A model generated the notes under the pieces. That model saw only the letters and a program-made list of their open reading frames with translations, was not told the DNA's origin and searched no databases. From the NCBI GenBank assembly GCA_022496205.1, contig WTXD01000042.1, positions 1-64,000 of the forward strand: DNA of 64,000 nucleotides. Direction: 5' to 3'. This stretch comes from Gloeopeniophorella convolvens. Lineage: Eukaryota > Basidiomycota > Agaricomycetes > Russulales. The translations under genes were made by a program, and so were the position numbers. This document shows positions 1,506-60,100 of the stretch, in pieces (position 1 is the first letter of the stretch; each line of letters opens with the position of its first letter).

Positions 1506-2160
1506 TGTCACGAACACTAGAGCCTCAAGGAGGTCGAACTGCTCAGAACACTAGAGCAAACCCAGCCCTACCGGTAAACACCCTACGCGTCGCTCACAAT
1601 GCGACGCGTACCACTCACATTGCGACTACAAGTCGAAATGCATCACGTGACCCTTCACCCCCATTCCTCGCCCTACTCCCTAATGGCCAATTAACCCTGA
1701 AATACCCCCAAGGTCCCGGACTAGGAATCTCTCAGAATGGCCATATTACTCGTCCCAAAGTAACCAGAACCTTGATCAAGGTGAAACGCTTCACGTGTCC
1801 TCTTTGGGACTCTGATTATCAAGAACTCCATGGGGCCTCAAACCCCACTCTGCGATGGAATCTAAGAAGCGTATCAGAGAGGAGAGGTTATGGGGAATCC
1901 CCTCTGGAATCCCCATCAGTAATTAAACCAGATTCATCTAGGGGGTCTCCAGTAGTATATAAGACCCCCATGTATCGCCCAGTGGTCCTCAGACTGTCCG
2001 TCTGTGGCACTCTCATCTGTACCTAGCACTGCAATAGCACTGTTAGTGTGTTCCTCCTTGTTCCTGCAATACTCGCAGCTCATCTTCCGCTTCCCCTCTT
2101 TGACACTCTCCAAACTATCTGCTACCCTCTCTGCGCGCACTCCGCAAGTGAGTCCTGACA
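1506..2160 (+). mobile_element. 3' LTR of the Ty3/gypsy element
   Basis: A 655-bp LTR starting TGTCACG after the polypurine tract and ending CCTGACA. A TATATAA box at 1956-1962 marks the likely promoter and start of R. The following sequence (from 2161, GCGTC) returns to the Plavaka-like transposase frame, so the retrotransposon lies inside that gene. The other target copy is outside the window. Confidence 0.85.
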
Positions 2161-8244: not shown

Positions 8245-8540
8245 GTGATGTCGCCCAAGATATGAGTGGGGGCGCGGTTCTTAAGCCAGACCGTGTGATG
8301 GATGCCTTCGCCCTAGAGAGATTTGGGCAGGCCACTATGGTGCATGATAGCGCGAACGCGCTCAAGAAGTCGGCGGTTGAGAGACTCCACGACGCCGTTA
8401 TGCTGTGGGGTGTCGTGTGTGGTAAGCCATCGTTCGGTGCCTTCTGAGTTCAAATAAGCTGTGAACTCATCACTCAAGTACTCTCCTCCTCGGTCTGAGT
8501 GGAGGACTTTGATATGCGCGTTTGTGTTGTGAAAAGCGGG
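8245..8540 (-). pseudogene. Ty1/copia integrase fragment
   Basis: Minus-strand remnant of a copia integrase core: HIKVLHSDRGGEYLSDEFTA (the DRGGE region), then TPQHNGVVESLNRRLLERVR and MHHSGLPKSL. A TAG at 8313-8315 replaces the tryptophan expected in the SLWGEA motif. The frame can be followed a little further (HHTVWLKNRAPTHILGDITP) before it degrades. There are no LTRs or RT nearby, so it is an isolated fragment. Confidence 0.88.
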
Positions 8541-8675
8541 GTGACTGTCGCAGCGGGGGGAAAATCGCGTTTGACGGAGCTCGTTACAAACGCGTGAGGA
8601 AACAGTACAAGTTACGATACGAATATATACTCGCTGCGACGTCACATGCTATGACATCATTGCCGAACGAGATTG

Positions 8676-10302
8676 CTACTCCAACAACTCCTTCAGGATC
8701 CTAATTGAATCAGTATCTTCGGCAGTATGTGGCATCGGGAGTCGTTCAAGGCGATTTAGCTACAGGGATGATGCTAATTGATATGCTGAACTTGGCAGGA
8801 GAGAAGAACGCACGAGGTTCACAACCTGGATTCGTTTCCACCATGCACGCATCATGGTGGCTTCGAGCTCACCCCCTGAATGCCCATTGTGATGAACTCG
8901 CATGAGGTCACCATTGTTGCGCTCATAGGCCCACACAGCCGTAGTGTAAGCCGCAGGACCAAGATGAAGGAATTGAGACCTGAGGTGGGTTGCGAAATGG
9001 AAATAAGGTGTTAGGTGGCACCCCATGCGTGCCCATGACTGAAACGATGTGTTGAGATAGTCACAACCACAATCGACGTCGTCAGGGGTTATAGACTGAG
9101 TGGAGAGGATGCGCACAGCCGCAGTAAATTGAAGGAGGTTGTCATAATGGCGTGATATATTGCGGTCAGCTTCCGCGCACTCGATATTCTCGTAGTCCGC
9201 ATCCGTTGGCTCAGCAACAGTGTCCTCGAGCCGCTCATGGAGACGGCGTCGCAGGAGCTTCTGAGTGAGCTTCTGAGATGCACGGAGCTTTGTATCCGGA
9301 AGAGACCTTGGCGCGTCTATGTTAGGGATGACGCCATCCACCTCCCATGCCTGGAAGATAGCGACAAACAAGACGCTGATAAGCGTTCGCCATTGGTCTG
9401 CCTTACTGCTGCTAGACTGGATGATCTACAGTCATGTAAGTTGACTTTGAGTAAATTCAAGTGCTCTAGGGACTCACATTTTTGGGCAATCGGCCAATTG
9501 ATGGGGGCCACCACATTGAATTTAACACATCCGCGATGACTTTGAGTGGCTGACGCTCAGCACGCGTGTGAACAGCGTTGAACATTCCAGCTTTGAAGAA
9601 TATGTTGCGAATGACGTGCTTGGTGACCACTGTCACATTGGTTCAGCATGCGTTTAGAAGGACAGCACTGCATACACAGTACTCATCTAGAAACATGCAG
9701 TGCATGTAATCAAAAAACCCCGAGCGCGATGGCATCCAGTTGGGAAGCAGGTTCATTGTTGACTAGCGCACCCCACGTTGCTGTAAGATGGCTGCCTGCA
9801 TTTGCTCATCACTGTCGCGTGCACGGAATGAATACTTGAGAAGGTTCCAGTTGGAACGCAAGGTGAAATCTATGGCCTCAAAATGAATCCGTGAGCACGA
9901 CGTCAGTGGACAGAAGGACGGGGTAGTAGCTTATAGCTACGCACGTTGTGGGTCGAAGGTCCTCGGATCAACTAACATAAAATACTGAGTCATGTCCGAC
10001 GGGCACATGGTCAACTTCAATGTGAAGCTTGCTGTTCCATTGAGCTTGCGGGTGGCCGGGAGATCTGATGCACCATGGTCTGCAAGACCGTGCACAAGGG
10101 CAGGCTGTGTGGACCCATGAACAGGAAAAGTCATCCCTGTGCTCAATCACGCGCGATCACATCAGCTCAAGAATTTCAATTTGTTATACACGTACCATCT
10201 CCGAGCTTAAGCATGTCCCGCATGAAAACGGGAAGAACCTCATTAAGCTCCTCTGTTGTTGGCTCATGAGGACCTGGAAGGACGAAGACGAGGAACGTCT
10301 CC
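8676..10302 (-). pseudogene. Tnp2-like transposase, C-terminal half (separated from its N-terminal half by the 13.2-kb KDZ element)
   Basis: Downstream half of a fungal Tnp2/CACTA-like transposase on the minus strand. From the KDZ insertion site the frame reads ETFLVFVLPGPHEPTTEELN, an intron, then HGLADHGASDLPATRKLNGT and a short cysteine-containing region. It continues with NIFFKAGMFNAVHTRAE, WWPPSIGRLPKN, LFVAIFQAWEVDGVIPNIDAPRS and FTAAVRILSTQSITP, then WARMGCHLTPYFHFATHL and YERNNGDLMRVHHNGHSGGE. The likely end is near 8676 (RILKELLE). N-terminal exons lie at 23531-25158. The two halves rejoin in frame (LREE + TFLVFVLPG) if the KDZ element and one target copy are removed. Confidence 0.85.
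10296..10302. repeat. Left target-site duplication of the KDZ element (CGTCTCC)
   Basis: Exact 7-bp copy of 23531-23537. Using one copy restores the Tnp2-like frame on the minus strand, which supports these as the true element borders. Confidence 0.88.
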
Positions 10303-10470
10303 GAGCCCTGGTGATTAACTTTGTAAAGTAAAACATGGTAATGTCCACTTTTTGGTTGTCAAATTTACCACTAATACTTGATACTATAGTATAGTAAGAT
10401 GATGCCTGTATTACCAGTGTTTTACTATAGACTATAGTGAATTGCATGTTGTGGTATGAGCACACCAATC
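10303..10470 (+). repeat. Left terminal inverted repeat of the KDZ element
   Basis: Pairs with 23345-23530 on the opposite strand. Shared landmarks from outside in are TTGTAAAGTAAA, GGTTGTCAAATTTACCACTA, GATGCCTGTATTACCAGTGT, TGAATTGCATGTTGTG and GAGCACA. Differences are mostly transitions. Confidence 0.88.
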
Positions 10471-11600
10471 ACCACTACAGTAAACTTAGTACAGTACTAT
10501 TGAGACCCTAGTAAATACTATGGTAAATACTACAGTAAAGTTAGTGTGGTAGTATCAGGGCCCTAGTAAATACTATGGTAAAGTCAGTGTGGTAGTATTA
10601 GGGCCCTAGTACATACTACAGTAAAGTCAATGCTGTAGTATTAGCACCTAGTAAATACTACAGTAAAGTCAGTGTGATAGTATCAGCCCCTAGTAAATAC
10701 TACAGTAAAATTAGTGCAGTACTATTAGGGCCTAGTAGATACTATAGTAAAATCAGTGTGATGGTATTAGCCCCTAGTAAATACTATGGTAAAGTTAGTG
10801 TGGTAGTATTAGGATCCTAGTAAATACTACAGTAAAGTCAATGCTGTAGTATTAGCCCCTAGTAAATACTACAGTAAAGTTAGTGTGGTAGTATTAGGAC
10901 CCTAGTACATACTACGGTAAAGTCAATACTATAGTATTAGTTGAGTATTAGCACCTAGTAAATACTACAGTGAAGTTAATATGGTAGTACTATTAGGACC
11001 CTAGTAAATACTATAGTAAAGTCAGTATGGTAGTATTAGCCCCTAGTACACACTATAGTAAAGTCAATGCAGTAGTGTTAGAACCCTAGTAAATACTATG
11101 GTAAAGTCAGTGCAGTGGTATTAGCCCCTAGTAAATACTACGGTAAAGTCAGTGTGATAGCATTAGCCCTTAGTAAATACTATGGTAAAGTGAGTGCAGT
11201 AGTATTACGGTCCTAGTAAATACTACAGTAAAGTCAATGCTATAGTATTAGCACCTAGTAAATACTACAGTAAAGTTAGTGTGGTAGTATTAGGACCCTA
11301 GTAAATACTACAGTAAAGTCAATGCTGTAGTATTAGCCCCTAGTAAATACTATGGTAAAGTTAGTGTGGTAGTATTAGGACCCTAGTAAATACTATGGTA
11401 AAGTCAGTGTGGTAGTATTAGCCCCTAGTAAATACTACAGTAAAATTAGTGCAGTACTATTAGGGCCTAGTAGATACTATAGTAAAATCAGTGTGATATT
11501 ATTAGAATCCTAGTGATTACTACAGTAAAGTCAATATAGTACTATTAGCACCCTAGTAAGTACTACGGTGAAGTGAATGCTGTAGTATCAGCACCTTATT
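10470..11600 (+). repeat. Left subterminal array of ~43-bp tandem repeats
   Basis: About 26 imperfect copies of a 42-44 bp unit, CCTAGTAAATACTACAGTAA followed by AGTCAGTGTGGTAGTATTAG and a short GC-rich spacer (GGCCC, CACC, CCC). Each unit holds palindromic TACTATAGTA-like cores. Variation between units is mainly single transitions (ACAG/ATGG/ATAG). Confidence 0.93.
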
Positions 11601-11619
11601 TACATCAGTGCAATCACAT

Positions 11620-11905
11620 GGATTTTTGGGAGCTGGAGCTCAAAACACTGGATATAACAAAAACATACAAAAGTGATGATGCACTGGTCATATCTTTGTT
11701 GGCAGTTGCATAGTTTTGCTGTGCATCATCACATAGTGGAGGCGGAGGCTGGGGTCGGTTATTGCATGCGAGAGCCAGGGAGAATCAGATCAAACGAGGC
11801 AGAACTGGGAGTAGCAGAGGCAGGGGGAGAGGATCCGGGAAAGCGGCCCGGCTGGAAGACTGAACGGAGCGCGACTTGCAACTCCAATAGCAATTGAGGA
11901 TGAGG
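11620..11905 (-). repeat. Subterminal module shared with two other sites
   Basis: About 285 bp next to the inner edge of the left array. Its reverse complement aligns along most of its length with 33765-34045 and partly with 35565-35740. Shared landmarks are GCAAGTCGCG, CGGGCCG, ATCCTCTCC, CAGCCTCCGCCTCCACT, GTTTTTGTT and GTTTTGAGCTCCAGCTCCC. No coding frame is conserved among the copies. Confidence 0.8.
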
Positions 11906-12316
11906 ATGCCAGAGGTGGGGACCCAGGCCCAGGGGCCAGACCAGTCAACCATACAAGTCCCATCAGCACTCGGAATGGAAGTCCTGCTGGAACTTGGGAC
12001 AGAATGCGGCTTCAACAATTTTTGATAGCCATACTTGTTGAATATACGTTCGATTTGCGGCAAACGCGCAGCATTTGCGCATCATATCATAACACATTTT
12101 ATACTACTTAGTAGTTCATAATAAAGTACGATGACTGGGTGCTAAACATGCTTGAAACCACGCATGCGCGACACCAACGAAAGGAGGGGAACAGTCGAGT
12201 GCAGGGTGAGCTCACGCACACACGCTGCACATGCGATCCAATTGCAACAATGCTACTATTCAAAGGTGTCATCGTCCTCACTACCGCTATGAACCCACGC
12301 TCCAGCGATATCATTC

Positions 12317-12400
12317 ACCCTCTCCTCCTCCTCCTCCTCCTCCTCCTCATCGTTGTCGTTGTCGTTGTTGTTGTTGTCGTCATCATCATCATCATCGGTT
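12317..12400. repeat. Trinucleotide microsatellite cluster in the 3' end of the KDZ gene
   Basis: Successive runs of CTC, GTT/GTC and ATC triplets. On the coding strand they encode the Asp, Asn and Glu runs of the transposase C-terminus. Confidence 0.9.
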
Positions 12401-15392
12401 GCCTCTTTTTGAACTGGCGCAACTGTGAGTGGGTACTGCTCGAGTGCCCATGGATCCGCGATCTTCAGGTTTGCTAATGCCGGCCGCCAGAGATTGATGA
12501 AGTTAGTTACAAAGTGGCGGCACACCGCCGCCTGCCGTTGAGCATATGCGTTGAGGCCAGAGACAATGTCCGGACGCCCATTTGGCCGAGCATCCACCTT
12601 GCTAAGCCACCAAGACAATCGCCACTCGAAATAGGTGACTGTGCGCTGCATTTCTGCTATGGTTAATTCAACCTCCTCGTTCTACCTATCGCGTCGCGCG
12701 CGTTGCTTGAACCAATCAATATGCATGCCTAAGTACCATAAGTAGTCAGTATGGAGGTCGCAGCAGAGTATCAAGTACTTGCTCTCGTTGATCTCGCCTT
12801 CAGCGATACCATTCTTGCCCTCGTCGCCTTGATCAGCCGCTGCCCCAGGTCGCACGAGCCAAATTCAACTCATCTCGTGGCGCCCCTCACTATTCTTGCT
12901 CAGCTGGTCCTTGTGTCGCTCTGCTGGAGTACGGTGTGCATCCTCAGGGTCATTAGCATGGGGAGAAACAATGTCTGATTTCCGAAGCTTCTTGAGGTGC
13001 TGGGTCTATGGCCCGTTAGGGTCTAAGACGAGGAGAGCCTCGTATGCTGCTCGATACCTCGCAACATGGCGCTCTTGCTTGGCTTCAAGATTGCCAATAA
13101 TACGGCGTGCCACAGTATTCTGTTTCTGACCCGGTCCATTGATTTGAATTTGCTTGTAACGGACTAAGCCCATCTTGACGTGAAGGGAACGGCGGAGGCT
13201 ATTGAGCGCGTCGTGGGCTTGGCCGACGCGCAGCCGCGCTTCTTTCTCGACAAGGCCAAACCCACATGAGTTGCGAAGATGTTCGGGGAGAGAGGACGGC
13301 AGGTGTAGAGGAATAAGTTCTGGAAGTGGTACATCAACGTCGTAAGGCACGCCGTCCGCAGCTTCCAGGTGGGGGATGCAGGGCATGTAGAGGCGCTGGA
13401 TGGCACGCCACCCGTTGATGCGCAGGAGAAGCGTGTTTCGCGTCTTGTAAAGGGCGATTTTTTCCTTCTCCGTGGTGCAGGATGGGACATTTGACGCAAT
13501 AATCCGCCTTGGTCGGCATGAATCAGGCACGGGAAAGAAAGAGGGAACGGTGCACGTACTGTTGTTCCTCCAGGTCCAACCCAACATCCAGGAGCATACT
13601 CACTGTAGTTTGGTGGAGTGAGTAAATGCCTCGCGCGGCTTCTTCAGATTCCTGCTTAGCCAATTCGAGGCGCACGTCATCCAAGGATGTCGCTAGCACG
13701 CGCGTGAGAGAGGGACGTCCGAAGGACGCGAAGACAACGCACCGACGAATTTCTCATCGTACGGATTGGGACGCGACCCATCCACTTCCCAGGCTTCAAC
13801 GTCTTTTCTCCACTCTTCGGTGAGTTTGGGGTCGAACACGTCGTCGAGCTGATCGAAAATCTTGACATTCTTGTCGCGATAGAACGCGGCTTCGAGGAGG
13901 TTCTTGCGTAGTGAGACACCTGAGAATGAGAATTGAGTTCTCCGGAGGTGTTTAACCGTGGATCCGTACCTATCCCCGTGATTTTCCGGAAGTTGATCGC
14001 GGCCATAATATCATCCAGAACTTCATGCCGCGTATGGGGTGCCATTTTGCGCGTGCTCAGGGCTGACGAGTTGATCTCGGCCCAACCCGTTTCCACCATT
14101 TCTCCATGAGTGCAGCCAACGTGACGTGTATAGTTGAATAAATAGGAACACTGACATTGAGGTCCGTGCGCATGGAGATGAAATTTGGGTACGGCCCACT
14201 TGATCCGAAGATCTTGCACATTGAGGCAGAGGGACTCCGGGTAGCGAGCAAGGTGGCTGAAAAAGTTTTTTGAATAGGAGCATGCTATATCGTACGAGAT
14301 GACAACGTCCTCGACGTCACGAGCATCAATGCCCAAGACTGACATTACCATGTAATTCATGGGTGCGAACCTGGATAAATCTCAGTCAACTGGATAATAC
14401 AGACATCAAGCACTTACGCTTCACCACGGAGAAGGTCTCCAGCGCAATGCTTGTGGTAAAAGGCGTGCCGAGCGCATACAACTGCGCCCACGCCGTTCAC
14501 TGCGAAGCGCTTCTTTGCGGGAGTGTTAGCGTGATCTACAGCAGAGAAATTGGAGTCGCAGTGCTTCATCTGTGAATCAGTCAGCGGCGGCGTATCGTAT
14601 CAAATGGGGAGGATCGCGAACGAACCTCAGCTTCATCGACATATCGTTTTATGTGGGCATCGTACTCTTCACTATTGACGAAATAAGACCACCCGGGGGC
14701 TAGCGCAACGTCGCGGAGACCACGATTCTTGAGTTTCAGCTTGAAGTTCGCGTCGACCGCGAACATAACGGAGAACTTCCATCTGACATGCACAAGTGAT
14801 CCTGACTTCTTCAGATACCCAGGCAAACGGCACATACCTCTCATCCTCGGGAATTTCAGTGATATCCTTGGGCATATTGCGTCCTGGTTGAGGGCACATG
14901 GGACAATCGACGCAGCACTCGCCCTGCGCGGTGCCTTCAATGCCAGTGGGGTCATGCGCACGCCCCAATCGTTTGGCCAGTTGGATGTTGCGAAATTCTC
15001 TCATGGCGCACGAGCATTCTATATACCTCCACTATAGTCTACGATGTCAGGACGCACACAGAGTACCAGAGTCGAGTTACATACCTTCGGCTTCTTTCCC
15101 GTCGAGTCGACCAGGTTTTGCAGAGAGTGGTAGTAGTCGTACATATTCACTTTACCGATGAGATTTAAGGCTTGATAGTGTTTGAGCAACCGAAATGTTA
15201 TCACGATACGCGGGCGCTCTGTCGTGGCAGGCCACCACGCGTTGCGCAGAAGTTGGACAAACGGGCACGATGATCCAATGCGGCCACAACCACAATAGCT
15301 TATGTGAACGTCTTGTACCCCGTTGAGGTCGACAACAGTGAGGGGTCCCGGCTTCGCTTCACGGTTGGGACACGGAAGGCCATCGTGCCCTA

Positions 15393-15935
15393 TGTCACGG
15401 CCTGAGCCGGCGCGAGCGAAGCTGACGAGGGCTGAGACGAGCGAGGTTCGACAAGTCGGTCTCGATGTGAGCCGGTTCTTGATGGTGCACGTGAATGTGC
15501 ACGCGATCCTGGGTAAGACGTGGTGTCTTCGAGTGGAGGCAATCGGCCTCCGGTATGTAGAATTCAAAGACTGGAAACCTCGCGATACTTGGGCGAACAA
15601 GTCCCTCACGCGGAATCCCTGGTAACCTCGTCGATTGACAAAGGAGAACAGGCTTAAGGCCTTAGAGTACTACTGCTACGCCTTAAGTACTACGAGAAGT
15701 GAAGGTTACATAACGTCCTAGTATCGAGTCATACCGAGTCGAAGCAGACTCAAGGTGGGTCTCCTAGGTAGAAGTACAATGGGTATCCAATGGCATAAGG
15801 GGCGCGTCAAGAACGATGAGGGAATAGTATGACGAGTGAAAGATAAGCGTCCCCGAGTCATGGAGCCGGAACGGAACTCGTATCGTACAAGTCGTGATGA
15901 GAAGAAAAAGAAAATGTATCGTACAAGTCGTGACA
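15393..15935 (+). mobile_element. Solo LTR, family S1 (copy 2), inside the KDZ/CxC2 exon
   Basis: A 543-bp insert TGTCACG...CGTGACA with exact duplication CCCTA (15388-15392, 15936-15940). Removing it restores RIQLG-HDGLPCP in the KDZ protein. It shares the block containing ACCTCGTCGATTGACAAAGG with copy 1. Near its right end the block ATCGTACAAGTCGTGA occurs twice, suggesting a local duplication that makes this copy longer than copy 1. Confidence 0.93.
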
Positions 15936-17038
15936 CCCTAGCTGAATCCGCAGACCGGCTTCACGCAGAGTGAACGAGTCCCAGTGTCCGTCTTCCCATT
16001 TCTGCGTGATGGCCAGCCTCAACGGTGCGTTCCTATCGAAGTCTCGCGAGACGTACCTGAAGAAGGTGCAGCGGGTTGTGGGCATGACACGCAGCCATGC
16101 ACACGTCGCACAGGAACCACAAGCCTGAGCACTCAGTGCATTTGAGCATGCCCAGATTCTTCTTGCACTGGCGGCACTCGGGAACTTGCTGATGCTCACC
16201 AAGGCCTTCGTGCCTGCAGAGCTCGTCGAGGTAGGTGTCGCAGAATGGAAGGAACGCTTCTAAGGGGTGGATCTGTGCGGCATCGGAAAGAGCTCATACA
16301 CGAAGGCCAGGATATACAACGTGCTCACCTTCTTTTGCACCGATCGCTTGTGCTTGAGTGGAGGGGAGGACGTCGTGACATTGACATCCGCGCCCATGGA
16401 TTCGACATCAAAATCCATCTGCTCACCGAATTGATGTAAGAAATCTTCTTCAGTATCCATGGGTTCATTGTGAATGTCTATGCTGGCTGGAGGAGAGCCG
16501 GGACGAGGTAAGTCAAGAGACTCCTGAGTAATCTGTTCTATTCGGTGGTTGAGGACGCCTTGGTGGTCCACGGATCCAGTGACGTGCGTGAACGAAATAT
16601 CATATCGGGCGCTTTGAGAGGGATTTGGACTGCGGGGAGTAGCTTTGGGGGGGCTGTCGTCAATGTGAGAGCCATCGTCGTGAGACACTTGGACCTTGCG
16701 CCGTTTGCGCGTGTTGCGTGGAGGCATGATGTTGCCGGGAGACCGCGCCGCGTTGGCGCCTGTTGGCACAGCACAATATCGACAAAGTTTGCGATGGAGA
16801 GTCCACTGTCTCCAACAAGTACTGCTATCCGAGATTTCGCATGCTGTATACCTCAAAGAGGCACAGGGTTGTATTCAAGTATGCAATAGAATCTCCATGC
16901 CATGCGAGAAAGTAATACGGTACAGAACGAGCCTTCCACTGGCACGCGTGATTCCGAACGAATGCGCGCGTTGCATGACGTCTCCTCAAATCCAGATCTG
17001 CAAGATGTACTACTACACATTTGTTTATCATACTCAAT

Positions 17039-17697
17039 CATCTCCCTAATTGCAGTTTTATCAATGCGGCGCTGCTCTTCAGACATATATTTTCCTGAAG
17101 TAGCTTTCTGGATTGACGATGCCAGGTGGGTCATTGAGTTCCGAGGAACTCGAAACTCGAAACTCGATCGCTTCTCGCACGCGTTACATGACGTCGTGTC
17201 GAGTCCCATCTACAACATATGCAACTTACAGCACATTTACCTTCATGTAGTACACTCTCAGCTCCCTAGGTTGTAGCATAATCAATGCAGCACTGCTCTC
17301 CAGAAATATAGTTTGCTGAAGTAGCTTTCCGGATTGACGAAGCCTAGCGGATCATTGAGTTCCGAGGAACTTGAGACTCGAAGTGCGCGTTGGATGACCG
17401 TCTCGCGCGTGTCGGATCCTATCTGCAATCTATCCAACTCACTACACATTCATTCACTACACTCTCTCAGCTCCTTAATTGCAGTATAATCGATGTGGCG
17501 CTGCTCTTCAGAAGCATATTTTCCTGAAGTAGCTTTCTGGATTGACGATGCCAGGCAGGTCATTGAGTTCCAAGGAACTCAAAACTCAAAACTTGATCGC
17601 TTCTCGCGCGCGTTACATGACGTCGTGTCGAGTCCCATCTGCAATATATGCAACTTACAGCACATTTGCCTTTATGTAGTACACTCTCAGCTCAAGC
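17039..17697 (+). repeat. Three ~215-bp tandem repeats between the divergent KDZ-element genes
   Basis: Copies begin near 17039, 17260 and 17469. Shared landmarks are CAGCTCC, GCGCTGCTCTTCAG, CCTGAAGTAGCTTTCTGGAT, TCATTGAGTTCC and TACACTCTCAGCTC. Copies 1 and 3 are closest to each other; copy 2 is more diverged. The array occupies the spacer between the KDZ start (16727) and the companion start (18363), a plausible two-way promoter. The rest of the spacer (17700-18360) holds no recognisable gene. Confidence 0.85.
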
Positions 17698-18362
17698 GTG
17701 CTTTATCATAGCTACGAAAACCTTTGTGATCAGCACCTGGGTGTTCACCCCTGCCTTGGCCTCCATAAACTTCCATCCACGATGTGGGCGGCTGCTACGG
17801 GGCGTGTTAGGGCGTGTTGGAGGCTGCCGGCGCAATGATTACCAGCACCGCGGAAGGAAACGACTACTGCTCCATGCGGGTACTCCTACAGGGTTGTGAG
17901 CGGGGATAGTGCCCATCGGCCAGAGACTCACTGGCTTGCTCTGAGAGCGATAAGGCCATGTTGCACTTGACGGTCACCACGGAAGGGCTTGGCACCTCAT
18001 GGCACATTGGCAAAAGTGGGTTAGGCCCGCGATTTCCACGGTTTGGATCGATCGCGCGTCGATTGGTGAGGAAAGCGATAGTAAGGTGGAAGGAGTGTCA
18101 GTAAGGGGCAGCACAGCGTACAGCGAAGACATGCGCAGACTGTATGTTCGATATGCCTTCCGGTTCGGACAGAAATCAGCTCGTCATCGAATGATACTCA
18201 CTCTATGAAGTCGCGTTGGGGGATACTTGTGGGAATGATACATTGCCGGGGATCTGAGGTGCTGGCGGCGTTGGGCTCGGGATCACGGCCGAAACCCTGA
18301 AACATCAGTGAGATGGCGATTTTCACTCAAGTTCGAACGGCGCGCATACCGCGCCCCGAATC

Positions 18363-21300
18363 ATGCCCATCTCTCGTAGTTTTCACCTTCACTCTCAACA
18401 ACATTCGCCTCGTAGTAAACTTCCCCTCGCTGTCATGTGGACTACTGAAGCACAACTTGGTTTTCTTTGGGGACTTGTCGACCGCTACCGGTATTTCCAA
18501 GGCAAACAACGCGTCGCAGACTTCTGGCCAGAACTATATGGAAAGTGGTTCGAAAAGTGGCCTGACACCGACAACAGCTTGGGACCCGGCAAGTCCATAC
18601 ACAAAGTAAGTTGCTCTGCCAGGTGTGCAGAACATTGACACTCACGAAATGTTGTAGCGCTTGCGCGAATGGTACAACAACCACGCGCGCAAGGGTGGTA
18701 AATGGCCATTGAAACAAGCTCCTTCCGATGATGAGAACGACCCGCTCGCTGGCGCGCTTACCTTCGAGGGTGAGCAGGGCGAGCTAGACCTCAACAACGG
18801 CACAGCTGGAGTACTGGTGGCCGGAGGCATTCAGGTAGCGAAAGCTCCCAAGAAGAGGAGGCCAAAAAAGCGCAGAAAGAAGGTCCTGGACTTGTCAGGG
18901 AAGCAACAGAGGAAAGACCGCGTATATCAGGCTTACATGGCGGAGTGCTGGTTCGACAACGGCCTCGGAGACAAGATCCACGCAGCATACAAGGAGCACC
19001 AGGCACTGCCGATCAAGCATAAACCCTGGGTCACGTTCATGAACAAGAAGGCAAGCGAATTGTGGGAGGATGAGAGGGAGTCCGTGAAGCAGAAGGTCTT
19101 GGCGCGCGTCGAGGGCGGGTCGATGAAGAACAACATAGCAGAGAGGGAGCTCCTCACAAATCCCGATCTCAGGAGAGAGCGAATCAAATACCTGAAAGAT
19201 CATGACGAGTTAGTACCACAGCGTCTTCGTTAATCGGACAGTCTCACTTACCGTGCTCACAGGGCCATAAAGTTGCTCCCAAAGACGGCCGTGATTGCCC
19301 TTGACAAGATCCGCGAGCAGACAGGGTTTGCTGCGACGCTGATCTTTGGCGGCTGCGTTCCAAGCCTGGGTGGGAGTATCAAAACATATGCGTCAGTCAA
19401 TATGGACCACGATCGCGCGACGCAGATGACTTACCTCACAGTAGTTTTCACACAGAGCTTCCGGACGGTCGTACATTTGCGAGAGGAAATTCGCAGTCAA
19501 ATCTACAGTCGAGAAGGAATATCTGTCGTGGATTAACACCGCGTTTCGTAAGTACCGATATTTGAAGGGTGGGGCGGATACTTACTACTCGTAGCTATGA
19601 GCGCACGGCTCATGCGAGCTCTACCAGGGACAGAGTCTCTCCTTACAAAACCTCAAGCCCAAGAGTTGGCGGCACATGCTAGGAGCGCTGCCCCCATGGA
19701 GACGCCGACTTTGCATAGTTCTCACTCGGCCTTGGGTAGCAAAGAAGATGACGCCGTGCGGCCTCACGATAGTGCCAGCTCCAGCACCCCTGACGAAACG
19801 AAAAGCGGAATGTCATCGCGCGCAAAGGGGAAGCAGCGCGCCAGGTCCACCAATGACACCTCCAGCGAGAGCGATTCAAGCGAGAGCGATACCGACAGCG
19901 AGTCTTCGACTTCGACCAGCGATGAGGAGGAGGACGAGCGCCGCCACGTGAAGAGTGGAGGCGGGATTAGCCACACCCCCACACCATACGAGCAGCTGCG
20001 CCTCGATAATATTGCGCGCAACAAGCGACTATTTCAAAAGATCAACGACGATCAGGCGGCGAGATTGAAGGCGGCGAAAGGGAGCTCACCTTCAGAAGAA
20101 ACGCCAAGCTCGTCCAAGGCACCGAGCACGAAGGCCGCAGGGGTCAAGCCATGGCCAGTCATCAGCGACCGTGTCCTACGTGAGAGGAAGTCCGATTCGT
20201 AAGTTGTCATCCGAGGAGTAATTAAAGTCCACTTACCGTAAATCCAAACAGGTCGGGCCCTACTGAGGAGACCGGTGCTGTGCAGTATCGTACAGGAGAC
20301 GAGCCCCGCGCGGCCACCCCCAAGGCCGCCGACAACGTTGTGAAGGAACCGCGGGACGCCGAGGACGACAAGCCGGAGGCAACCCCTGCTGTTCCAGCTG
20401 CCGCTAAAGGGGGGCATGATGGTGTTGCTGAAGGCACGACAGCACCTGGACAAGAGCACGCCGCTCAGTCGCAGAGCAAGGTGCCGCCTGGAGACGGTGG
20501 ATTCGGCGACCAGCCCCCAGATGTCGTCAAAGCGCCCGCCGATAGCACGGTGAAGAGCGCGGAGGTCGTCAGCTTGGATCGCACTCCGGGAAGTGACGCA
20601 CCTGTTTCACCCAAGGGTGCAGCACCCGTCCCCGCTCTCGTGCCTGTGCCCGCTCTCGTGCCCATTCCCGCATCCGTATCCGCATCCGCATCCGCCCCCG
20701 CGCCCATTCCCGCGTCCGCGTCCACGCTCGCACCCGTTCCCGTTCCCGTGCCCGCGCCCGCTCCCCCTCCTGCTCCCGCGCCCATGCCCGCGCCGGCGCC
20801 GGCGCCCGAGCCCACTCATGTTCCCACTCCTGCCCCCGTGCCCGTGCCCGTTCCCATGCCTGCGCTCGCGCCCGCTTCCGCTCCTGCTCCCGTTCCAGCT
20901 CTTGTTCCCATTCCTGTTCCTGTTTCTGTCCCCATCCTCGTTCCCGCGCCGGTTCCTGCCCTTGCCCTTGCGAACGCGATGGACGTGGCCACAACGCTGA
21001 CGATTGGCGACAGCACGTGGCCGCCGTGGTTCCGGGAAGCCTACGAGTTTCTGACTTCGCAGTCGAGTGACGAGCACTGGCAAGCAATGGTGACCCGGTG
21101 GGTGGTGTTGGGCGAAGGCGAGTCCGATGTTCTCCGACATTCGGATGGCCGCGCGTGCAACACAGCTTGCGCCAGCGAGCTGAAACTTTGATGGTAGATA
21201 GTCCGGATACTAGGCTCCATCATATCTAATTTCCGTAGTGTTACGTACGATACTTCCGTAGTTATCACGTTCCTTACTCACCGGGCCGTTTCTCAAACGC

Positions 21301-22116
21301 GTGACAAGTCATGAGGCCGAAATCCATTGAGGCAGGCCTGTACAGGGCCAAATGCGCGATATTGTGGACACCATTAGTCATGCCTCTGCCATTTATGGAC
21401 CCCAGGGGTCCTCCTGTATATAAAAGCCACCTGTAGGAACTGCAAATACCAGTGTCTCCTGCCACTACAGCTCTATCGCTCTCAAGCCTCTAGCTGGTGA
21501 GAATCAGTAGTTAATACTGTAGTATAGAGCAATACAGTAGCTGCGCTATGCCTGTTCAACAGGTGGCTTTCGAGACGAACCTGGGATTCCCTGAAGGAAA
21601 GGTTAGCAACTAGAACGTCTTGGGTTAGAGATGATACTGATCTTTCTTTAGTCCAAGAAAAACCGCTTGGACTCCACAGGACGGCCCGACCAGTACAACT
21701 GGTGGCAGAGCCGCCGACGCGGGTATGCAACACTGCCGCCAGACTTCGGGAAGACATCCGAGTTTGCCGTGGCCATCAAGACATTCTACACCGGGCTCCA
21801 GCCAGACGCACGCGGTAAATCATGGCCCCTGATGCGTGAGGCGTGCGATCCAGGTGACTGGAGCGAGCTGAACAAGGGCGGGAGGAAGGGGTTCTTGACG
21901 ATTCTCGTATTGCTCGCCTGGTGGCAGGGGCTTGAGCAAACGAGGAGAGAGAAAAAGGCGCTTTCCGACATGGTGGACGATGTCTCATGGGTGCTCGACC
22001 AGTTGCTGGCGGTGGAGCGGGGTGCGAAGCATTCGCGCGAAGACGATGACTCCGGGATATCGAAGAAACGGTGCGTTGTCCGTACTTGGCGGAATCCGGC
22101 CCGATGCTTACATTGA
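18363..22116 (+). pseudogene. Companion gene of the KDZ element (agaricomycete transposon-linked family, unknown function)
   Basis: Multi-exon plus-strand gene. Exon 1 (18363-18605) has MWTTEAQLGFLWGL and FWPELYGKWFEKWPD. An intron at 18606-18657 leads to an exon with RLREWYNNHARKGG, a lysine-rich stretch (KKRRPKKRRKK) and AYMAECWFDNGLG. Introns follow at 19209-19262, 19548-19594, 20199-20251 and 21602-21651. Later blocks are a Ser/Glu-rich acidic part, YEQLRLDNIARNKRLFQKIND, a long Pro/Ala/Val-rich repeat (20620-20970), WVAFETNLGFPEGK and WWQSRRRGYATLPPDF, and a WVLDQL end. These blocks recur in an unnamed agaricomycete family that I recall near KDZ/Plavaka genes. A one-base frame loss near 19485 and a V-family LTR at 21106 break the gene. 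The exact 3' end is uncertain. A DNA-binding or accessory role is only an inference from the basic patches. Confidence 0.72.
21106..21561 (+). mobile_element. Solo LTR, family V (copy 1), in the companion gene
   Basis: A 456-bp LTR TGTTG...CAACA with exact duplication GGTGG (21101-21105, 21562-21566). TATATAAAAG box near 21416. Excision restores TRWVAFETNLG. The second copy, same length, is at 54190-54645 on the other strand. Confidence 0.95.
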
Positions 22117-22440
22117 GTAATCCACCAGCACACGCCTCCGCTGAAACTCGGCATCGACTCGAAAATGCTCGCAAACATACGCTTCCCGGCCGCTCTTGAC
22201 TTATCTTCGACTGACCGCTTGTTTTTCCATAATATATTGTTCGCATAGTCCCTAGTAGAGGATGGGGCTTAGTATATACACAAAATACAATGATTTTTGG
22301 CCTTTCTGTGCAGTACATCGATATAAATGGAAGTGGAAGCCGGACCATACGGGCCGAAGAAATCACGGGGTCACCCCGGGCCATTATTGCCTCTGAAGTT
22401 TGAACATCTTACCACAGTGCTGATCTGGTGTCAATAGTGT
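22117..22440. other. Right inner spacer of the KDZ element
   Basis: Sequence between the companion gene 3' end and the right array. AT-rich (ATAATATATTG near 22230) with no gene recognised. It does not match the module at the left inner edge. Confidence 0.45.
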
Positions 22441-23345
22441 ATTGCCTCACTTACTAGTATAGTATTTACTAGATGATGCTACTACTGTAGCACTGATTTA
22501 CTGTAGTGTTTACTAGGGTCCTAATACTACCACACTAACTTTACTATTATATTTACTAGGGTGCTGATACTACTACACTGACTTTACTATAGTGTGTACT
22601 AGGGGTTAATACTACCATACTGACTTTACTATAGTATTTACTGAGGCCCTAATACTACCACACTAACTTTACCGTAGTATTTACTAGGGACTAATACCAT
22701 CACACTAACTTTACTGTAGTATTTACTAGGGTCCTAATACTACCATACTGACTTTACCATAGTATTTACTAGGGTCCTAGTACCACCACAGTAACTTTAC
22801 TGTAGTATTTACTAGGAGCTAATACCATCACACTAACTTTACCGTAGTATTTACTAGGTGCTAATACTACCACACTGATTTTACCGTAGTATTCACTAGG
22901 GTCCTAATACTACCACACTAACTTTACCGTAGCATTCACTAGGGGCTAATACCATCACACTGACTTTACTGTAGTATTCACTAGGGTCCTAATACTACCA
23001 CACTGACTTTACTGTAGTATTTACTAGGGTCCTAATACTACCACACTGACTTTACTATAGTATTTACTAGGGTTCTAATACCACCACACTAACTTTACTG
23101 TAGTATTCACTAGGTGCTAATACTACAGCATTAACTTTACCATAGTATTTACTAGGGTCCTAATACTACCACACTAACTTTACTGTAGTATTTACTAGAT
23201 ACTAATACTACAGCATTGACTTTACCATAGGAATTACTAGGGTCCTAATACTACACCACTGACTTTACTGTAGTGTTTACTAGGGGCTAATACTATGGCA
23301 TTGGCTTTACCATAGTATTTACTAAGGTCCTAATAGTACTGTACT
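22440..23345 (-). repeat. Right subterminal array of ~43-bp tandem repeats
   Basis: About 20 copies of the same 42-44 bp unit as in the left array, in opposite orientation (CTAATACTACCACACTGACT then TTACTGTAGTATTTACTAGG). Together with 10470-11600 it forms a mirror pair about 11 kb apart. Confidence 0.93.
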
Positions 23346-23530
23346 AAGTTTACTGTAGTGATAATTGATGTGCTCATATCACAACATGCAATTCACTGTG
23401 GTCTATAGTAAAACACTGGTAATACAGGCATCACTTTACTATACTCCAGTATCGAGTATTAGTGGTAAATTTGACAACCTTAAAATGAATGTTACCGTGC
23501 TTTACTTTACAATCTTAGCTGCCAGTATTG
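23345..23530 (-). repeat. Right terminal inverted repeat of the KDZ element
   Basis: Reverse complement of the left terminus; see the landmarks given for 10303-10470. Flanked by the CGTCTCC duplication at 23531-23537. Confidence 0.88.
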
Positions 23531-25158
23531 CGTCTCCTCACGTAGGTATCGAACGCTTCGTGGGTTGTTAAGGCATGTCATATACAAGGCGCCGGTCGAG
23601 TGTGTTGAGTTTTTCACTGATTGGAACCTGAGTTACAATGTTACGTTGAAAAGAGGGAGACTAGGACACCATTGAAGCACTCACCAGTCAAGATTGAGCT
23701 GGAAGACGAGTCCACAGGGAAGCGAGACAAAGCGCTGCTGGAGTTCGTGAACGTCAACGTCCTCAACATTCCACTGGTTCGTGCGCCGGCGTTCAAGCCC
23801 CGCCTGAATCGCGCGCCATCCCCATCCGTCGTAGATATCTCGCATCGGCGTGTGACGCCGAAGCATGACCTCATCTTCTCGGTCTTGTGATGGGGCGACG
23901 TGTCCGGGTGCATCGTCGTGGGTCCGCCAATGCTGTAATTGTTCGTATTTTCCCGGGCGTGATAGCATAAGACGAATCGCGGAGATTGGAGATACATATG
24001 AGAGGAGTTTTTTGGGAGTGCGTTTGAGGGTACCGTCCCGAAGTCGCTTGCTCGTGTAGAGGATCCCAGGACAGCCAGCCCTACTGCAGACAGACGATTC
24101 GGACTCCAAGATCTCTGCCCGAGTATACAAGTGCCAGCAGCGAGGACAAAGATAATAATACTTGATCAAGTCATCGGTGTTGACCTGGAGACGACGTTCG
24201 ACCATTCTCAAGGTAAGCGCGAAGTTTTCTAAGCCAGGAAAGTGCACTTCATCCGACTGACGTTGCCCAGATAAAAGTAGCTGATATGAGCCCTCGAGCA
24301 TGAATCTGACAGCCTCGCAAGTGGCACCCTTGAAGGAATGGGCAATAAACGCGCGAATATAAGATGCGCGCATGGCCGGTGGAGGCAGCGCAGCTGCCTG
24401 CGGCGACGAGCGAGGAGGGGAAGTCTCGGGGTTTTCCCGCACATTGCGTGCATCTCTACGTTACAAGTCTCGTGACTCTCCGCTCCCGTGACTCTCAGCG
24501 CCCTCTGCACTCTCCCCTATTCCACCGGATGGTCTTCAAACACGGAAGCGTCGGTAAGCACATTGTCGAGAGGGTCGTCGTCTGGAGGAACCTCCTCAAA
24601 GATAGCCGCGCGCGTCTCGAAGAGGTTCTGCATGAGTGGAGCAGGATCGTTCTCGTCGTTCTCGTCATCCTCGTCGCCGGGACGTGCGCCATCTTCCCAT
24701 TCGAGATTTTCGTGGGCTTCGTCTAGGTCATCAGGTTCAAGATGGTCCTCCTGTTCCGGGTGATTCTGGGAGTGAGCGTCGAGTTCGTGGTCCATGGAGT
24801 ATGCAGGAGATGGCGGCCGCATCTCGTCGTCTAGATCAAGTTCAGCCTGAGCGTCGTCATCGTCGTCACCCCAGCCAGGTCCAAGTTCCAGGTCATGAGG
24901 AGGATGAGAGGATTCTTGGGACGCGGACGCGTGCTCCGGGTCAAGATCAGGGGGCGGCGTAGTGGAGTCCAAGTTAGGGCGACACTGAAGGTTTGCCAAG
25001 GTTTGCGCTTGAGCACGGCGAGTGTCGTTCTGGCGATGTCTCCACTCGGTGTGTTTTGTCTGTTCTAGGCGTCCACCGCGACCGCGCGAGCACTGCGAGC
25101 AAGTGCACCAGACTAGGGCTGCCGTGCGCTTTGAGGTTGAAGTGCCACGACCCGGCAT
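23531..25158 (-). pseudogene. Tnp2-like transposase, N-terminal half
   Basis: Upstream half of the transposase whose C-terminal half is at 8676-10302. The start at 25158 (MPGRGTSTSKRTAALVWCTC) is followed by a Cys-containing motif, a long acidic region (WGDDDDDAQAELDLDDE) and an intron. Next are GATCEAVRFMLEGSYQLLL and a zinc-ribbon-like pattern (CPRCWHLYTRAEIL...CSRAGCPGILY). Then come RPGKYEQLQHWRTHDDAPGH, MRDIYDGWGWRAIQAGLERR, QFVSLPCGLV-type sequence, an intron at about 23633-23690 and STHSTGALYMTCLNNPR. The frame reaches LREE at the KDZ element border. It lies back to back with the DUF6698-like gene starting at 25747. Confidence 0.87.
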
Positions 25159-57110: not shown

Positions 57111-60100
57111 CCGGAAAACTATAAGAAATCGTGTTTTGCCCGCTGGCAGTGTACTGTGGCCAATGTAGCTGAGACCGAGAGAGGGCAGGGGGCGCCATAG
57201 CAGGAAGTAGTGGTGGGAGGGGCGGTGGAAGCGGAAGACGGGCATGGTGCGGAAAACTGAGAGCAAGAGCACGGGACAGCGCGTGGCAGGGGCTGCGGCC
57301 TAGAACAGAGAAGTAAGTTAATAGAGACAAGAGAAAGAGACTTACCTAGCACTGACCAACAATGGTGACGATGGGCAACGGTGAACTCGCCGCAGCTCGC
57401 TGGGCATTCACAGTAGAGCGCCGACCGCAGCGAGTGGAGCGCCGCGCGTGCAGATTAGCGCAGCGCCGTTTGAGGGCAATGCGGAAGGCGATGGCGGTGA
57501 GCCGGGTGAGGGTGCGCTGGGCGAGCCTATGGGCAGCAAGCTGGAAAGCGAGCTGGGCGAGGGAGGTGGCGATGCGGGCGCAGGGGACAAAGCTGGGTGC
57601 ATGCTGTCAGGTGCAATTGCTAACATCACCCAGGGGAGCCTAGTAGGGGGCGAGAGGCGAGGGTTGCATCATGGCGCGATTCTTCATTACCGAGAGGAGC
57701 GAGATGGTGTTGCCGACGAAGGCATTTGCAGCAGGAGGGGTGAGCGCGGGACCACCCTTGGCGTATTATCGAGCTTGACAACAGGCGCACGGGGATAATG
57801 GGGAGTGCGGGTGAGGGACGGTTAGTACGTGTGAGCAGACAGTGCATATAGCAGGCGCACCTTAGCACGACAACTCAGCGCTCAGCGCTCAGCCGCTGCT
57901 TTCGAGAAATGACAAGTCAAGCCATTTGACTCGCGTGGTAAGAACATGTGACATGCGTGTGAACTAACCGGCTGGACCCGGTGTCGTACAAAACTTTGCG
58001 ACGCGCGTTGTCACATCGTTTCACTCTCTTCTCCTCCCTCCATCTTTCCCCATTTTCCCTCTCCCTTTCCTCTTCCCTTCCCTCCCGCTGTACCTGCAAG
58101 CCCACTACCTGCAAGTTAGGGTCAGTATAGGATGGAACTGGGCATAGGGTGAGTGTTTAGCACGTCCTACATGGGTTTTCTGACTTTATGACTAGTGCAA
58201 GATCTTGCTGGCTTGTTGCTGCCTTGTCGGAAAAACAGGAACGGCATTGTCAATGCATTTTAATCGAATTAATGTAACTAATGTCAAATTCAGAGGGATG
58301 GGCTATTGTAATAGATCTAATTGACCCGGATTGCATAACAATGCGCATTAGAATGAGCATTCTAATTCACTCGGCAAAATAATCAATGTCATTGATATGT
58401 CCCTTAATGTAGGGGCCGCAATTGTAATGCAAAGGGGTAGATAATAATGAGGTGGCCAGGAATATAATGTCAAGCGATGGTTTACAATGACAATGAGGAG
58501 ATTGCAATCAGCCCGGAACATAATCAACCACCATCTAATCTTATAATCTGATTCGGATTCTTAGATGGACATTTTTTATCAGCGCACTGTCTATCCATAT
58601 GACAATAATGATGTATCTAGTTTCTGCTTTAAACTAGCTAACTACAGCTTTAGGTAGAGGCTTCCGTGTGCAAGGGAGGTGGCGAGGCAGCAACTATGCA
58701 GCACACACACATGACGAAGCTCAAGCAACGTCATGCACAGTGCCAGACACACAATAGAGAGGGCACCATGTGAGTGCATGCATCCTGCTGACAAATTCAA
58801 GCATGACCAGGTGGAGCTCAACTGTAGAAGTTGCGAAGCATCGTAGCAATGGAGTCGGCGGCAGTAAACCTCCCCCCAATTGGGAATATACAGGATGGAG
58901 AAGGGGGGGCAAAGTGAGATGGTGCGGGATGGTGCGATGGACCAGAGTTGGTAGGTGGAGGAGATGGCTAGATGTGGTTGAGACCAGCCCTTGTAGGAGA
59001 AAAATCAGTCGGAATCGAGGTGCGGGTGTGGGAAAGATGAAACATAGCAGTGATATTGGTGGCACGCAGGAGAAGGAGCCCGGAGATACTCCGCTATTCC
59101 ACAGAATGTACTTGTGGTACCGGCATGACGTGGCAGCCATTGCCACCCACAATGTCCTTGCCATGCTTCATCCAGTGCGGCAAGGTGCCCACAGACGACA
59201 GTGTCAATGAGTGCGCGCGTGCGGCGGCGTGCAGTGGGCACAGGTCTGGGCAGTCGATCGGTGCGCCCGGGAGTGCGAACGGTGGCAGCCTGGCAAAGTC
59301 CTGCATGCGCCGCCGCACGAGTAAGGTAGCGGATGCCAGGAACTGGCATGGTTTATATAAGCACAATCTCCCCTCGACTCTGCTCTCAAAATCTCTCCCC
59401 ACATTCCACCTTAGTTCAAATATAACAGCAGTAGGTTATAAGGGGATTCATTCCCTACAACTTTCAGCAATCGCTTCCCCAAAATCATCGAAATTGAGCT
59501 GGGAATTTCCACTCAAAGGTTTTCATTGGAATATGTATTTTCTGCCATGTACAAGTGAAATAAAATGCTTTTGGTGAAATTAATTGGAACACATTGTCGG
59601 ATTTGGCTGTCAGTGGTGGGCACTTATAGGGCGCTTATTAAGCGCTTAAGCTAGCGAATCTTGTGGCAAGCAAGTGGCAAGTGCTCATGGGCTTTGGGTC
59701 TCTGTCCCTGCATGACAATTTAACACTTGGTGGAGTCAGCAGAGGTGGAGGTGGGGCCTATTGAGCTCAGAAGAAGCAATATAGTCAACTTCCTGTCACA
59801 CTCACACTGCTCACTTGATGCCCATGCCCTGCATGGGTACTTGTCGACACATATTTTGGTCAGATTTCCGGGATTTGGCACTTTACGTACATAGGCGCCC
59901 GCTTACGTACCCCGTGCCAGTTCCTGGTGTCCGCTACCTTAGCAACACGCTCAGAGAGGCCTGCAGCGCGATGCAAAGCCCGTGGACCCCCCAGATGAGG
60001 ATAGCAATGACACCGCGCCCTCGCCGAAGAGGTACAGTGCGAGCGTGCAGGGAAACTGCAGGTACTGGATTGTGCCCGCGCCGTTCAGTAGCGTGCGCGG

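Follow-up and report, generated by a model that had tools for sequence, protein, structure and literature searches.

The DNA analysed here is a window of 64,000 nucleotides from the genome of Gloeopeniophorella convolvens, a wood-inhabiting fungus of the Russulales. Positions 10303-23530 of this window were identified, with high confidence, as a single insertion of a cut-and-paste transposon of the KDZ superfamily, presumably of the DDE type, into a Tnp2-type transposase gene. The borders of the element are exact, a 7-bp target duplication is present on both sides, and the same two tips, which differ from each other, delimit a family of 20 paired elements in the genome. The window copy has decayed through an in-frame stop and through two long terminal repeat (LTR) retrotransposons, each of which left a solo LTR.

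Tips, target duplications and related copies

The initial annotation placed the ends of the element at 10303 and 23530, with CGTCTCC on both sides and a motif common to both ends, TTGTAAAGTAAA. All of these were read in the sequence exactly as claimed. The element has GA..TG termini, with GA at the left end in 21 of 21 left rows and ...TG at the right end. The arms of the window copy match at 89% over 212 nt, beginning approximately 13 nt inside the ends, and identity between the outermost 18 nt at either end is only 44%. In an ungapped comparison of ten elements, the outer 18 nt matched at 44% in nine and at 61% in the relative C369, and the next 42 nt at 81-100%.

The whole genome assembly (36.7 Mb, 404 contigs) was searched with the tip patterns GAGCCCT[G/A]GTGAT (left) and CAATACTGG (right), allowing up to 3 mismatches and with the reversed patterns as controls. 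There were 28 left and 22 right tips in the genome, compared to 0 for both reversed patterns. Neighbours facing each other on one contig were paired by hand. This gave 20 pairs, every one of them joining a left tip to a right tip, with 8 left and 2 right tips remaining unpaired. A further pairing at C393 (12040-17914), in which a right end is used twice, was listed as an extra row and left out of the 20. Other copies with the same termini therefore exist: all 20 paired elements end at the two tips.

For every one of the 20 pairs, the flanking sequence was read. An exact 7-bp duplication was present in 13 pairs, a 6/7 match in 2 and no duplication in 5 (C6, C399:57521, C70, C64 and C259, with C70 sharing one base, as expected by chance). 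No duplication of another length above 1 bp was found among the 20 pairs. When flanks were deliberately mismatched, a 7-bp match was obtained in 1 of 420 pairings, between rows that share a flank. The two pairs matching at 6/7, C221 and C399:54507, share their flanks and probably represent a single locus. Two family members lie 510 bp apart in opposite orientations at C399:54507-57010 and 57521-60050; the first has the flanks of the C221 copy and the second lacks a duplication.

Eight short copies (2.5-3.3 kb) have a mutual identity of 87-98%. Global alignment of arm against arm gave 95.4-99.6% identity in seven of them and 79% in C373. Local arm matches were made for four short copies: the arms of C28, C285 and C398 (the middle of which has 128 unread bases) were 99.5-99.6% identical over 1.3-1.5 kb, starting at base 16, and for C76 there were two matches, at 96% and 90% identity. 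These copies are fold-back-like and have ends in common with the large KDZ transposon. The large relative C369 carries the same tips as the window copy.

One left and one right tip are thus found in 20 of 20 pairs, and each tip is near-constant across subfamilies, even in front of nearly perfect inverted arms. This might indicate that the transposases of this KDZ family require one tip of each kind. Selection would then hold the outermost 13-18 nt apart while kilobase arms homogenise into near-perfect inverted arrays, so that fold-back derivatives persist only as left-right elements and the 43-bp arrays serve as symmetrical binding platforms. This interpretation is given close to an even chance. 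The tip difference may instead be no more than common descent, without left and right ends being functionally required, and this possibility is rated somewhat short of even: in the first subfamily, the eight short copies (87-98% identity) could owe their tips to one founder. However, the tips are also kept between the two large copies, the window element and C369, for which synonymous divergence (dS) is near saturation (0.7-1.2), and none of the 20 neighbouring inward-facing pairs is of one kind. Shared descent can account for part of the tip constancy, and the bolder interpretation is that the two ends must differ.

The interrupted gene and uninterrupted sites

According to the initial annotation, removal of the element plus one target copy repairs the reading frame of the host gene. 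This held: the flanks joined in this way give VRYLREETFLVFVLPGPHEP in a single frame. The identification of the flanks as halves of a Tnp2-like gene was supported by alignment across the junction, whereas a direct Pfam match was lacking: the PF02992 (Tnp2/Transposase_21) profile did not match the host-gene pieces, and none of its 7 matches in the genome scan lies in the window. Four PF02992 loci, from 4 of the 6 contigs with matches, were compared (C235 and C403 being nearly the same gene), and the pairwise junction alignment was made with the best-looking of them, C17. A gap-free alignment of the joined host peptide with C17 spans the junction and covers 43 residues (16/43 identical, E 1e-8 for this single comparison). 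A motif R[YF]-11 residues-PGP is present in all four loci, and the joined host sequence keeps equal spacing. Excision of the element and one 7-mer therefore yields a normal Tnp2-type stretch. Stops between the open frames of the host gene may represent introns or decay.

Empty sites were sought within this one genome. For the C28 copy, all seven spanning alignments to uninterrupted homologues (80-89%) crossed the junction with no gap within 50 nt, although one of them reaches only 16 nt beyond it, and the homologues have a single 7-mer, at times diverged by one or two bases. Four matches spanned the junction of the C398 copy, with no gap within 50 nt in one (window 1611-2160), one gap in two and two gaps in a weak match (72%). 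The stretch at 1611-2160, as a homologue of the uninterrupted target of C398, is itself a repeat. The initial annotation had named, as a point against its reading, empty sites at which the CGTCTCC repeats were already part of the host gene. The single, sometimes slightly diverged 7-mer at these sibling sites argues against this for the family, whereas DNA and protein comparisons with the genome yielded no uninterrupted relative of the window's own host gene, a single 150-bp DNA piece excepted. This piece, approximately 150 bp in the N-terminal host part (24376-24535), recurs at C2, C388, C201 and C195 with 95-98% identity, and the rest of the gene is without a close copy. A weak match to rve (retroelement integrase) on the minus strand at 8316-8648 (E 0.00095, below the cut-off) adjoins the 3' part of the interrupted gene.

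That the true ends lie a few bases inward, at the shared CTGG or TTGTAAAG, with the differing outer 5-18 nt as captured flank or filler, would fit the low match of the outer 18 nt (44% in nine of ten elements and 61% in C369, against 81-100% over the next 42 nt), but is very improbable and already contradicted by the sequence: the tips are constant at unrelated sites (13 nt in 20/21 left and 9 nt in 21/21 right rows), the 7-bp duplications abut them exactly in 13 of 20 pairs, and two siblings have uninterrupted sites without them.

Genes and decay of the window copy

A KDZ transposase and a second gene were reported inside the element in the initial annotation, and both were recovered. PF18758 (KDZ) matched with E 1.1e-32 in the window and 4.3e-58 in the C369 model, PF18803 (CxC2) with E 1.3e-30 and 3.4e-36, respectively, and the second gene lies on the plus strand. 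The transposase gene of C369 is open, with 10 exons in the model made here, and its publicly recorded protein has 1,121 residues; a public G. convolvens protein is 98% identical to this model. Between the window copy and C369, the ratio of nonsynonymous to synonymous divergence (dN/dS) was 0.075-0.289 in five segments of the transposase and 0.178-0.449 in four segments of gene 2, with frames picked by fewest stops and stop codons skipped. These values imply purifying selection on both genes, with dS (0.7-1.2) near saturation.

The description of the window copy as complete was overstated, as only its ends are complete; the initial annotation missed the two nested solo LTRs and the in-frame stop, as well as the 42/43-bp arrays and the existence of related copies. 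Inserts of 543 and 456 bp recur at many places in the genome (85-98%) and, because of their TG..CA ends, 5-bp duplications and many copies, are solo LTRs. Treating the stretches at 15393 and 21106 as parts of the element was rejected, as both recur across the genome. Solo LTR 1 interrupts the transposase in its CxC2 region, and C369 aligns on both sides of it without the LTR. Solo LTR 2 splits an exon of gene 2, and the C369 gene reads through the corresponding position. Events therefore ran from the host element to the KDZ insertion and then to the two LTR insertions. With one solo LTR in each gene and a stop in the transposase, the window copy is, on its sequence, dead. There is very little chance that it is intact and autonomous, although the ends and the two genes can still be recognised and the public gene model P0002 passes solo LTR 1 as if it were an intron, since that protein is partial (768 residues) and ends at the in-frame stop. 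The coordinates of all features are listed in Table 1.

Table 1. Features of the KDZ element, its host gene and the C369 relative (window coordinates unless stated).
Feature	Position	Strand	Remarks
KDZ transposon, 13,228 bp	10303..23530		Delimited by two tips common to 20 paired elements, 13 with exact 7-bp duplications
Left target-site copy CGTCTCC	10296..10302		Read in sequence; flank comparison
Right target-site copy CGTCTCC	23531..23537		Read in sequence; flank comparison
Left tip GAGCCCTGGTGATTAACT	10303..10320	+	First 13 nt invariant in 20/21 left tips read
Right tip, read inward CAATACTGGCAGCTAAGA	23513..23530	-	First 9 nt invariant in 21/21 rows (from 20 distinct right ends, one of which serves two rows)
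Left inverted repeat	10316..10527		89% to 23306-23517
Right inverted repeat	23306..23517		Partner of 10316-10527
Subterminal array, 42-bp period	10523..11596	+	25 copies
Subterminal array, 43-bp period	22497..23359	-	About 20 copies; opposite orientation to left array
KDZ transposase gene, broken	12259..16727	-	Start set by hand at methionine matching C369 protein start; end from last long frame
In-frame stop	13006..13008	-	Not in C369 relative; annotated protein P0002 ends here
Frame with KDZ domain (PF18758)	13680..14381	-	Model positions 99-217
Frame with CxC2 (PF18803)	15022..15669	-	Gene part 15022-15392, remainder LTR
Solo LTR 1, TGTCAC...GTGACA, 543 bp	15393..15935		CCCTA on both sides
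Gene 2, broken	18312..22113	+	Extent of frames with homology to C369; exons modelled in the C369 copy only
Solo LTR 2, TGTTGG...CAACA, 456 bp	21106..21561		GGTGG on both sides; within gene 2 exon
Interrupted Tnp2-type gene, C-terminal part	8676..10302	-	Stops between its open frames
Interrupted Tnp2-type gene, N-terminal part	23538..25158	-	
C369 element, 13,306 bp	88028-101333 (C369)		Same tips as window copy; GCCCCGC on both sides

Gene 2 was found in this genome in the window and in C369, with an additional weak match carrying two stops on C38. No homologues were obtained in two protein searches (7995 candidates scored, many perhaps sharing only low-complexity words, and 247 scored). The structure predicted for its C-terminal exon (predicted local distance difference test, pLDDT, 54) was not used. 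Foldseek with the transposase model gave no match at E <= 0.001. Approximately 3 repeats of a unit of about 210 bp are located between the two divergent genes, at 17012-17693. The KDZ profile gave 65 matches in the genome scan, 61 of them above the cut-off, a count made exon by exon that is a lower bound. Further KDZ genes pair up with equal scores (e.g. C31 with C367, C257 with C401), which points to further KDZ families of recent origin or to contigs present in duplicate.

From these features, the KDZ protein would cleave the element at its tips, GAGCCC and CAATAC, and these would be joined to target strands with a 7-bp offset. The inverted 42/43-bp arrays are candidate binding sites of this protein, gene 2 is a putative accessory of transposition, and the short fold-back derivatives may be mobilised by the transposase of relatives.

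Relation to known elements and significance

Long inverted arms with tandem repeats, as found here, are also a feature of Galileo and Tetris, fold-back DNA transposons of Drosophila. These belong to another transposase superfamily (Galileo is described as a P superfamily member), and the arms in the present family keep different tips.

Among the closest known elements is Kyakuja of Laccaria bicolor (Kyakuja-1_LB and -2_LB), for which PMC12730594 describes 7-bp duplications, CA..TG ends, a TET/JBP gene and no inverted repeats. A KDZ transposase, an Agaricomycetes host, the 7-bp duplication and the right end ...TG are common to both. In contrast, the element described here has GA..TG ends, inverted arms and 42/43-bp arrays, and no Pfam match to a TET/JBP dioxygenase domain was found in the frames scanned, which cover part of the short exons. 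By its PF18758 and CxC2 matches the family is assigned to KDZ, with ends and arms unlike those of Kyakuja despite the common duplication length. Zisupton and Dileera share the KDZ transposase superfamily, with 8-bp duplications (PMC12730594) compared to 7 bp here. Large KDZ elements with inverted repeats are also described in PMC12810828 for Cryptococcus neoformans: KDZ1, KDZ2 and KDZ3 are approximately 9-11 kb, with inverted repeats of 139-241 bp, 8-bp or 4-8-bp duplications and demonstrated movement. Those elements carry CxC1 and are mobile, whereas the window element has CxC2, a 7-bp duplication and the state of a dead copy. KDZ inverted-repeat motifs in Marasmius are indicated in PMC8290104 as characterised in its supplement, so similar tips may already be described there. 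A literature search for KDZ or Kyakuja together with fold-back, asymmetric termini or subterminal repeats returned no such report among the matches listed.

A well-delimited member is added, but the value for defining the superfamily put forward in the initial annotation is smaller than claimed, as the 7-bp duplications of Kyakuja (PMC12730594) and mobile inverted-repeat KDZ elements (PMC12810828) had been published before. The new details are the inverted 42/43-bp arrays behind both ends, the fold-back-like short derivatives with arms of up to 99.6% identity, and the tips that stay different. A fungal KDZ family is now available with borders fixed by exact duplications in 13 pairs and by uninterrupted sites known for two siblings, plus a relative with an open transposase gene. 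It can now be tested directly where the element is cut, whether the spacing is 7 bp and whether the two ends must differ. The fold-back-like short elements in this genome have the ends of a KDZ transposon, and the fixed difference between left and right tips is the most interesting part of the finding.
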